DNA of 64,000 nucleotides from positions 1 through 64,000 of the forward strand of contig PSRM01000337.1 in NCBI GenBank assembly GCA_003176045.1, read 5' to 3'. The translations under genes and the position numbers were made by a program. This stretch comes from Verrucomicrobiota bacterium. Lineage in GTDB: Bacteria; Verrucomicrobiota; Verrucomicrobiia; Limisphaerales; UBA8199. Below the pieces are notes generated by a model, which made no database searches, was not told where the DNA came from, and saw only the letters and a list, made by a program, of their open reading frames with translations. Position 1 is the stretch's first letter. Every line of letters begins with the position of its first letter. Positions 61,017 to 64,000 of the stretch are shown here, piece after piece.

Positions 61017-64000
61017 ATGAATGACGAATTCAACCCCCAGGACGGCCCATTGCGAAAGCGTGATGAAGATCCAATTATGGGCCATCCGCCAGATGAGCCA
61101 TACTTACGCCCGGCCAATGGGCACCATCATCACCGGACAAACGGCCATGCGCCAAAGAGCCGGGTGGATATCTGGGCAGTCATTGACTTACTGTTGAGGC
61201 GATGGCACTTGCTGGCGCTGTGCACCATTGTTGGGGCGGGGGGATTCTTCACGCTCGGAGCGCGCTACGTGGCTGCCAAGTTCACGGCTACAGCCAAGCT
61301 GATTCGCTACGAGACACCGGGCACGGCGCTTCTCAAAACCGAGACACCGATTGCGCCCGATACATTCGCCGCGATGCTGCGCGCGCCGGACTTACTGCGG
61401 CGTGTGGGCGAAAAACTCAACCCACCTGTGGGAGAGGACCGGCTCGGCAAGGCCATCAAAATCGAGCCGGAGCCGGACTCGGACATACTTAATGTGACAT
61501 TAGTCGGGCGTACTGCGGAGGAGGCAGTGGGTGTGCTGGATCTCTACTCGCGGGAAGCGGTCCAATACATGAGCGAATGGCAGGCTGCGCAAGCCGGCAA
61601 GATGGCCAATGATTATCTGAAAGCGCAGGTCGAGCAGATGGATGCCGATCTCACGGTGCTCGAACGGCAGTTCCGCGGCCTGCCGCCCGCAGAGCGCAAG
61701 AGCATGACCAATTCAATCAACGCGGTGAGCACAAACCTCAACGCGTTGAACTCCCATTTGGCGGCTTCTTCGGGACCCAACCTCATGCAGGCCAAACTTG
61801 AGGAAAATCTCATGACTGCCATTACGCGGCTCAATGAACTGAGCGCGAAATGGACGACCAACCATCCTGAAGTCAAAAACGCGCAGGCGGACGTTGACAA
61901 TTTACAAGCGCAGATCGCAGCGGCGGCGACCAACCGCCAACCGTTCCTGGCGCTGGGCAAGATCGCACCCATGAGTGCGGCAAACGTATTCAATCCGGAC
62001 CGTGAAATCGTTCAAATAAAACTACGGTCACTCGAGGATGGCCGTCTGCAACTTGCGGGCCGGCAACGTGAGGCCGAGCAGTTCGCCAAGGACCCGCCGG
62101 GCGTCGTCCGGGTCCTCGCGCCGCCGAGTCTGAAAGCTGTGAAACAGAATTACCGCGATCTGAAAATCGGTTTTCTTTCGGCCTTCGGCGGATTGCTTGG
62201 GTTGGGCGGGAGTATTCTGCTTGTGTTACTGGTGGAGTTCACTGACAGCCGGCTAAAAACGACCGATGACATCACACGCGTAACAAAACTGCCGGTCCTG
62301 GCGACATTGGGCGATTTACAACGGATGACCCCTGCCGCCCGGGCGCAATGGGCTTTCCGCGCCTGGACAATGCTGCAAGGCCGGCTCAGTCCAACCGCCA
62401 ACCATGGTCTGATCTGCGGCATTACTTCGGCCAATCCGGGCGAAGGCCGCTCGACGTGGGTCAGTCTTTTGGCCCAGGCCGCCAGCCTAACTGGCTTTCG
62501 CGTGTTAACGATCGCCACGCAGCCGTCCCCCACGCATCTTGAAGGCGAGCTTGAGGACGCGCCGGATGGGCCGCCGCCCGATGATCCTGAGCAATTGTTC
62601 GGCGGCGACGGCTCACTGGCGCTTGCTACAAATGTGCTCTCTTCGCCCGCGCAAATCACGGATCGCCTGATGAGCCCGGATGCTCAACCGGTGGTGCATA
62701 TTCCGTTGCCGGGTTGGGTGTGGAACCTGGAGCGGCGCAAGCAGTGGCGCGACGCCCTGAGTCACTGGCGCAAGGTGGATAATCTCGTGATTTTAGTGGA
62801 GCTACCGCCTGCCGGCGTCACCGAAGCCGTCCTGCTCGGGTGCAATCTTCCCAATATGGTCTGGCTGACAGACAGTTGTAGTTCGCGCGCATCCGACACG
62901 CGAGCGCGATTGGAGACCCTGCGCGATGCGCGCTGTAATCTCGTGGGGGCGGTTTTGAATCACGAGACGGCGCCGACTGTCAGGAGACGATTGTCACGGT
63001 GGATTGAGTGCGTGGCTTTTCTGGCGTGCCTGGGGTTGTCGTCGGCCATTGCCGCGCAACAGAATACCAATGCGGCTGGATTTGCCGAGTTGCCGCCGGG
63101 TTTTCTTTATCCTTCTCCGCCGATTAATCCTCCTGCCAAAATTAAACCGGTCGTGTCGTCCTCGTCCTCGTCCTCGTCCTCGTCCTCAAAATCTGTAGCC
63201 TCATCGGCCCAAATATCGCCGGGACAAGCGCAAGAACAGCAGCCCCTTGCGCCAACTGGCGCTGCCGACAGTTCCCGCCCGCCGAGTGACTCGGCGGCTA
63301 GTGCGGACGAGGCCGTCCGCACTCCTGATCGCGCGGACGAGGCCGTCCGCACTCCGGGGCGGAGGTATTTCTCGGTGGTGGATCCGGCGCAACGGGCGGA
63401 ATGGCAGAAACATCTTACGCTCGGTCCGGGCGATGTGCTCACCATCGGACTATTTGGCGAGGTGGATTCGCTTCGCGCGGACATGGCGATAGCTCCCGAT
63501 GGGCGGATCAATTACCTGGAAGCCACAAATATCGTGGCTACGGGCCTAAGTATTGACGAACTGCGCACCGAACTCGATAAAGCTTTGAGCAACTGGCGCC
63601 GGAATCCCCGCACGATGATTACTCCGGTGGCGTTTCACAGCAAACGCTATTACATGCTCGGGGCGGTCATGGCCAAAGGCGTGTACACTTTGGACCGGCC
63701 GCTGACGGTGCTCGAAGCCGTTGCCCGCGCCAAAGGGATGGAAAACGGCCTGATTGACCGCAACGTAGTGGACCTGGCCGATTATTCTCATAGCTTTCTG
63801 GCGCGTGGCGGCAAGCGGTACTCGCTCAACTTCGACAAACTCTTTGGCCAGGGCGATCTCGCTCAAAATCTGCCGATCGAGCCCGGAGATTACATCTACT
63901 TTGCGACGGGCAACGTGCAGGAGGTGTATGTGGTTGGCGAGGTCCGCCTGCCTGGCTCGGTGCCTTTCGTCCCGAACATGACAATTATCCAGGCGATTAC
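61017..64000 (+). CDS. Wzz/GumC-type co-polymerase fused to a Wza-type export domain (open at window end)
   Basis: At least 994 residues with no stop before the window edge. Residues 60-82 are a first membrane helix (HLLALCTIVGAGGFFTLGA), followed by a Wzz-like periplasmic domain with a coiled coil (YLKAQVEQMDADLTVLERQF), and a second helix near 381-407 (IGFLSAFGGLLGLGGSILLV). Residues about 461-657 look like a bacterial tyrosine kinase (BY-kinase) ATPase, but Walker A is GEGRST with Arg at 478 instead of Lys. A third hydrophobic segment (VAFLACLGLSSAIAAQ, near 662-682) is followed by a Ser tract and a Wza-like export region (HLTLGPGDVLTIGLFGEVDS, near 795 onward; VYVVGEVRLPGSVPF near the edge). 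Chain-length control and outer-membrane export of a polysaccharide would be joined in one polypeptide. The two are normally separate genes. Confidence 0.8.
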   Translation, partial: MNDEFNPQDGPLRKRDEDPIMGHPPDEPYLRPANGHHHHRTNGHAPKSRVDIWAVIDLLLRRWHLLALCTIVGAGGFFTLGARYVAAKFTATAKLIRYETPGTALLKTETPIAPDTFAAMLRAPDLLRRVGEKLNPPVGEDRLGKAIKIEPEPDSDILNVTLVGRTAEEAVGVLDLYSREAVQYMSEWQAAQAGKMANDYLKAQVEQMDADLTVLERQFRGLPPAERKSMTNSINAVSTNLNALNSHLAASSGPNLMQAKLEENLMTAITRLNELSAKWTTNHPEVKNAQADVDNLQAQIAAAATNRQPFLALGKIAPMSAANVFNPDREIVQIKLRSLEDGRLQLAGRQREAEQFAKDPPGVVRVLAPPSLKAVKQNYRDLKIGFLSAFGGLLGLGGSILLVLLVEFTDSRLKTTDDITRVTKLPVLATLGDLQRMTPAARAQWAFRAWTMLQGRLSPTANHGLICGITSANPGEGRSTWVSLLAQAASLTGFRVLTIATQPSPTHLEGELEDAPDGPPPDDPEQLFGGDGSLALATNVLSSPAQITDRLMSPDAQPVVHIPLPGWVWNLERRKQWRDALSHWRKVDNLVILVELPPAGVTEAVLLGCNLPNMVWLTDSCSSRASDTRARLETLRDARCNLVGAVLNHETAPTVRRRLSRWIECVAFLACLGLSSAIAAQQNTNAAGFAELPPGFLYPSPPINPPAKIKPVVSSSSSSSSSSSKSVASSAQISPGQAQEQQPLAPTGAADSSRPPSDSAASADEAVRTPDRADEAVRTPGRRYFSVVDPAQRAEWQKHLTLGPGDVLTIGLFGEVDSLRADMAIAPDGRINYLEATNIVATGLSIDELRTELDKALSNWRRNPRTMITPVAFHSKRYYMLGAVMAKGVYTLDRPLTVLEAVARAKGMENGLIDRNVVDLADYSHSFLARGGKRYSLNFDKLFGQGDLAQNLPIEPGDYIYFATGNVQEVYVVGEVRLPGSVPFVPNMTIIQAI
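63153..63188. repeat. TCGTCC microsatellite encoding a serine tract
   Basis: Six-base units TCGTCC repeated about five to six times, translated as a run of about 12 serines in the linker before the export domain. Expansion or contraction by whole units keeps the frame. Confidence 0.9.
63301..63352. repeat. Tandem in-frame palindromes before the export domain
   Basis: GTGCGGAC, GAGGCC, GTCCGCAC at 63301-63322, and GCGCGGAC, GAGGCC, GTCCGCAC at 63331-63352. They are translated as SADEAVRTPDRADEAVRTP, two copies of ADEAVRTP. Confidence 0.9.

Follow-up and report, generated by a model that had tools for sequence, protein, structure and literature searches.

A conserved Verrucomicrobiota fusion of a Wzc-type co-polymerase, a degenerate kinase and a Wza-type export protein, with a seam resembling a cleavable signal peptide

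Does a single polypeptide bridge the two membranes of the envelope in polysaccharide export? The question is raised by the last gene in a 64,000-nt stretch of Verrucomicrobiota DNA (the window; bases 1-64000 of contig C372 in a 7.74 Mb assembly of 372 contigs, 86% complete). A first-pass annotation had claimed one uninterrupted frame of at least 994 codons uniting a Wzz-type co-polymerase, a degenerate kinase and a Wza-type domain, and had proposed that its product forms a covalent bridge across the envelope. The frame itself holds: from an ATG at 61017 (or a TTG at 61002) it runs free of stop codons across the rest of the window and up to the contig end. Extending the sequence, as had been advised, found the frame still open but added only 13 nt, as the contig is 64,013 nt long and the C-terminus is cut off there. 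About 90% of the gene lies inside the window, and complete fused copies in relatives span roughly 950 to 1,170 codons. Coordinates of the features are collected in Table 1.

Table 1. Features of the fused gene and its surroundings (positions in the window; residues of the window protein)
Feature	Position	Strand	Basis or remark
LuxR-type response regulator	54947-55600	-	upstream of fused gene, opposite strand
Histidine kinase with PA14 domains, 1,537-codon frame	55672-60285	-	divergent from fused gene
Fused gene: Wzc-type co-polymerase and pseudokinase, putative internal signal peptide, Wza-type OPX	61017..64000	+	open frame; fusion in relatives; truncated by contig end
TM1, residues about 65-85	61209..61271	+	hydropathy, alignment to relatives; helix 49-81 in model of relative
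TM2, residues about 385-407	62169..62237	+	alignment to relatives; helix 362-391 in model of relative
Degenerate BY-kinase domain, residues 410-655	62244..62981	+	relative's match to Wzc/CapAB/Etk kinase domains; motif counts
Degenerate Walker A, GITSANPGEGRSTW	62418..62459	+	Arg478 (cgc, 62448-62450) at Lys position
Degenerate Walker B, LVILVELPP	62784..62810	+	Glu595 replaces Asp
Putative internal Sec signal peptide, residues 655-679	62979..63053	+	weight-matrix test; seam in all fused relatives
AGGAG followed by in-frame TTG (62991)	62983..62993	+	not conserved
Low-complexity linker	63054..63401	+	contains two copies of the genome-wide palindromic repeat
Palindrome GCGGACGAGGCCGTCCGC, copies in linker	63303-63320, 63333-63350	+	in frame within OPX linker
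Palindrome, further window copies	53362-53379 (-); 58949-58966		one mismatch in the 58949-58966 copy
Poly_export domain, residues 798-867	63408..63617	+	Pfam PF02563 above threshold, E 5.8e-10
SLBB domains, residues 876-961 and from 970 to the truncated end	63642..64000	+	

All the parts named in the annotation (co-polymerase, kinase-like, Poly_export and SLBB) were found, and were confirmed by profile and fold comparisons on relatives. Pfam and NCBIfam analysis of the window protein returned Poly_export and SLBB matches at residues 798-994 (SLBB: PF22461 with E 4.8e-12; PF10531 partial and below cut-off), preceded by weak co-polymerase and kinase matches; the combination of Poly_export with SLBB domains identifies a Wza-type OPX protein. 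Profile searches with a relative matched Wzc and CapAB. An AlphaFold model of the closest complete relative (L006, sharing about 52% identity with the window protein; 44-row alignment, mean pLDDT 80) displays well-defined domains, a seam helix (637-657) and a disordered linker (659-697). Its residues 47-642 align to Wzc (Z 21.4, rmsd 10 over 380 residues), 392-641 to the BY-kinase domains of Wzc, CapAB and Etk (Z about 21, rmsd about 3), and 685-990 to residues 71-376 of Wza (Z 18.1). Two transmembrane helices flank a periplasmic PCP domain in this model and are combined with a kinase fold, which defines the Wzc type (PCP-2). By this comparison, the first ~655 residues of the window protein are predicted to form a Wzc-type co-polymerase with two transmembrane helices, a periplasmic domain and a cytoplasmic BY-pseudokinase. 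A C-terminal helix of the model (962-987), of moderate amphipathicity, aligns to that of Wza and corresponds to sequence beyond the end of the window contig, which leaves class 1, marked by an amphipathic pore helix at this end, as one of the possible OPX classes. The pTM of 0.44 makes the arrangement of the domains in the model uninformative.

The fusion was searched for in 58 related genomes, 320 genomes of the order and 388 of the phylum, and was found in many families. A scan of GTDB contigs returned 63 loci, the named records among them being Verrucomicrobiota (Pedosphaera, subdivision 3, Limisphaerales, Opitutaceae and Rubritalea). Removal of duplicates left 47 distinct fused proteins together with 26 proteins in which the corresponding OPX (OPX1) occupies a separate frame, some of these 26 having incomplete upstream sequence. 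Additional fused frames were identified in near-complete or finished genomes (G441, one contig, 971 codons; G329, 1,136 codons; G510, 1,031 codons), giving about 50 other Verrucomicrobiota genomes that carry the fusion. Recurrence on this scale lies far beyond chance, and it answers the search of relatives suggested by the first-pass annotation. The OPX1 tree has strong support on 42 of its 69 inner branches; it contains a large clade of fused proteins, a second one with seven members, an isolated fused protein and a split system inside the large clade, and needs four changes between the fused and split states, at least two of which are forced by strongly supported branches. In the split system, the kinase and OPX genes share an ATGA overlap, and the OPX protein begins with a signal peptide of its own, a feature present in fused as well as split forms. 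In one member of a fused clade (L095; 81-2190 and the next frame) the frame breaks inside the signal-peptide region (NRFPRWFAGLNGHPH, then a stop), reflecting either a frameshift error or a recent fission.

Another class of the phylum contains two separate co-polymerase-OPX fusions (L163 in G586 and L167 in G566), each with a lipobox at the seam (LSSGC and LFTGC, respectively). Such fusions are rare in that class, where most copies are split, and these two could be recent stop losses; a lipobox at these seams makes sense only if the fusion is processed. Four further candidates from other families (L164-L166 and L168) were rejected as fusions: their ~1,000-codon frames match OPX only and are overlapping frames that hold no co-polymerase.

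The kinase is degenerate across the whole fused family. The annotation had correctly noted Arg in place of the Walker A Lys, and of the 44 fused proteins compared, 39 have Arg at this position, 3 have Lys and 2 have Cys. In Walker B, Glu replaces Asp in 42 of the 44, the Walker A' DxD is lost, and 40 of the 44 have no Tyr at the end of the kinase; the window protein has no Tyr tail. A canonical Wzc paralogue encoded on contig C92 of the same genome retains GEGKST, DSDLR, FFDSPP and a Tyr cluster after VLNN. The fusion occurs at the point aligned with this VLNN: the window protein reads VLNHE and enters the seam, with the putative signal peptide occupying the place of the Tyr tail, so that tail phosphorylation of the fused protein cannot control export. 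Together, the Walker A Lys, the DxD of A', the Asp of Walker B and a Tyr-rich tail mark an active BY-kinase, and this combination is absent from the fusion family. The preference for Arg in Walker A suggests a retained structural or phosphate-binding role. EcpK (EcpK/EpsV) of Myxococcus xanthus is a BY pseudokinase with a PCP and a proposed scaffold (PMC12004946); like it, the fused protein has a kinase fold without Walker motifs or a Tyr tail. EcpK is a separate protein, whereas the pseudokinase described here is joined to co-polymerase and OPX, and its Walker A has degenerated only in part (Lys to Arg).

What lies at the seam determines how the fusion is to be understood. In the window it reads VRRRLSRW-IECVAFLACLGLSS-AIA/AQQ, with a predicted signal peptidase I cut after A679. 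Fused relatives share a pattern in which a basic stretch, often RFxRW, leads into a hydrophobic core and then into small residues, the last of which is usually Ala; the basic stretch follows the end of the kinase at a median distance of about 17 residues. A simple count of AxA motifs failed to separate the seam from TM1 or from shuffled tails, and we instead used a weight matrix with matched controls; it was derived from a training set of 28 E. coli signal peptides and assumes that the Verrucomicrobiota peptidase has a similar preference. Scored in this way, fused seams (median 4.6) are indistinguishable from the N-terminal signal peptides of separate OPX1 proteins (median 4.0; AUC 0.55, p=0.52). 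They exceed TM1 of the same proteins, the matched control because of its identical orientation (median -0.4; AUC 0.85, p=8e-10), and also TM2 (median 0.4; AUC 0.83, p=1e-7). The window's own seam, at 4.6, is middling, and low-scoring seams exist (for example L006, L007 and L008). Hydropathy over 19 residues is 1.44 at the seam vs 1.94 for TM1 and 2.25 for TM2. By these measures the seam has the character of a cleavable Sec signal peptide and differs from TM1 and TM2.

We consider it probable that the gene specifies a polyprotein and that signal peptidase I splits it into a Wzc-type pseudokinase and a periplasmic OPX protein in a 1:1 ratio. The kinase part would be made first, after which the internal signal peptide would re-engage the Sec translocon for export of the OPX part; cleavage, most likely after A-I-A, would then release periplasmic OPX1. 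OPX1 and co-polymerase would be produced 1:1 and at the same place in the membrane, and equal numbers may be of benefit. OPX1 could form a ring on the co-polymerase cage that is extended to the outer membrane by a separate OPX lipoprotein (OPX2), free OPX1 being a possible layer between the two, while the pseudokinase would act as a scaffold rather than in Tyr phosphorylation. FbcH of Bradyrhizobium, a cytochrome b/c1 polyprotein, provides a parallel in which a membrane protein and its periplasmic partner are cut apart at an internal signal peptide, although the proteins and the pathway are unrelated to those of the fused exporter.

Could the two halves instead stay together? If the seam were an uncleaved third transmembrane helix, co-polymerase and OPX would remain covalently joined. 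Retention of the fusion in many families would agree with this, and a hydrophobic core preceded by positive charge would suit a membrane anchor too. However, the seam scores as a signal peptide and not as the identically oriented TM1, it is less hydrophobic than both transmembrane helices, and OPX is a separate protein in the split homologues; moreover, in G510 the spacer between hydrophobic core and OPX is only about 12 residues long, which on a length argument puts the top of the cage out of reach. We therefore regard a permanent tether as unlikely. There is a similarly small chance that cleavage is absent or only regulated and yields a covalent Wzc-Wza, an obligate 8:8 exporter that has given up Tyr-phosphorylation cycling. 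The uncleaved version would hold a periplasmic OPX at the inner membrane and would not by itself link both membranes. The envelope-spanning covalent bridge proposed earlier is disfavoured by the resemblance of the seam to a cleavable Sec signal peptide and by homologues whose separate OPX has its own.

It is very improbable that OPX is started independently at an internal codon of the seam, with the full-length fusion as a by-product. In the window, a TTG 8 bases past the start of AGGAG would initiate MSRWIECVAFLACLGLSSAIA, a good signal peptide, but a start codon with a Shine-Dalgarno sequence occurs in only 2 of 47 seams vs 10% of control windows, many seams have no start codon at all, and the seam is constrained as coding sequence (dN/dS 0.06 in the spacer and 0.57 in the signal peptide, from five close pairs only). 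The AGGAG/TTG of the window is probably due to chance. An assembly or sequencing error that fused two genes, the removal of a stop codon foreseen in the first-pass annotation, might be suspected for a gene at a contig end of an incomplete assembly; the homologous seam recurs in about 50 genomes, one of them a one-contig genome, and we reject this explanation as having next to no likelihood.

The annotation had also placed the export domain among proteins usually secreted as outer-membrane lipoproteins. Its assignment to the Wza-type OPX stands, but a lipobox is absent from the seams of the window and of nearly all fused relatives, which have Ala instead, so the fused OPX is not the outer-membrane lipoprotein. 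In most loci of relatives, a second OPX gene (OPX2) lies directly downstream and usually has a recognisable lipobox; this is seen in relatives only, as the window contig ends before that point. The available text on OPX structural classes 1-3 (PMC9603273, PMC9601211) describes the Poly_export and SLBB architecture that the fused OPX shares, puts non-lipidated Sec/SPI OPX proteins at about 30% of class 3, and contains no description of a joining to a co-polymerase; PMC9603273 also points out gaps between co-polymerase and outer membrane in Myxococcus.

The E. coli capsule/colanic acid exporter Wza-Wzc is an octameric 1:1 (8:8) assembly with a 360 Å channel (PMC12881504), and the folds match over nearly the full length of both components (PDB 9r64, 7nhr, 2j58). 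The 1:1 ratio of the fusion fits this 8:8 channel. The fusion differs in being one chain rather than the product of two genes, in lacking active kinase motifs and a Tyr tail, and in having a signal-peptidase-I-type seam in place of a lipobox. The fusion is real and conserved, and is a variant of the Wzc-Wza system for which we found no earlier report of a co-polymerase-OPX fusion in the open-access literature searched, a search that was not exhaustive. As a polyprotein it would be old and lineage-wide, with a built-in 1:1 ratio consistent with the E. coli channel. The natural fused and split versions offer a ready test of co-polymerase/OPX assembly without kinase cycling, and they advise caution, as seemingly giant envelope-spanning fusions may be processed polyproteins.

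The linker that precedes Poly_export is 127 residues long in the window protein vs a median of 42, in part because it contains two in-frame copies of the palindrome. This is a REP-like element that occurs 124 times in the genome, compared with 0 occurrences of the reversed control.

In relatives, the fused gene is accompanied by genes for a WecG-family glycosyltransferase with STAS domains, a family 4 glycosyltransferase, subtilases, and histidine kinases and response regulators. The histidine kinase and LuxR-type regulator in the window are possibly regulators of the fused gene, and the neighbourhood would fit a regulated exopolysaccharide locus. Elsewhere in the window, at 49227-52647 on the minus strand, frames resemble the specificity subunit (HsdS) and the methylase subunit (HsdM) of type I restriction-modification systems, as judged from reading the sequence.
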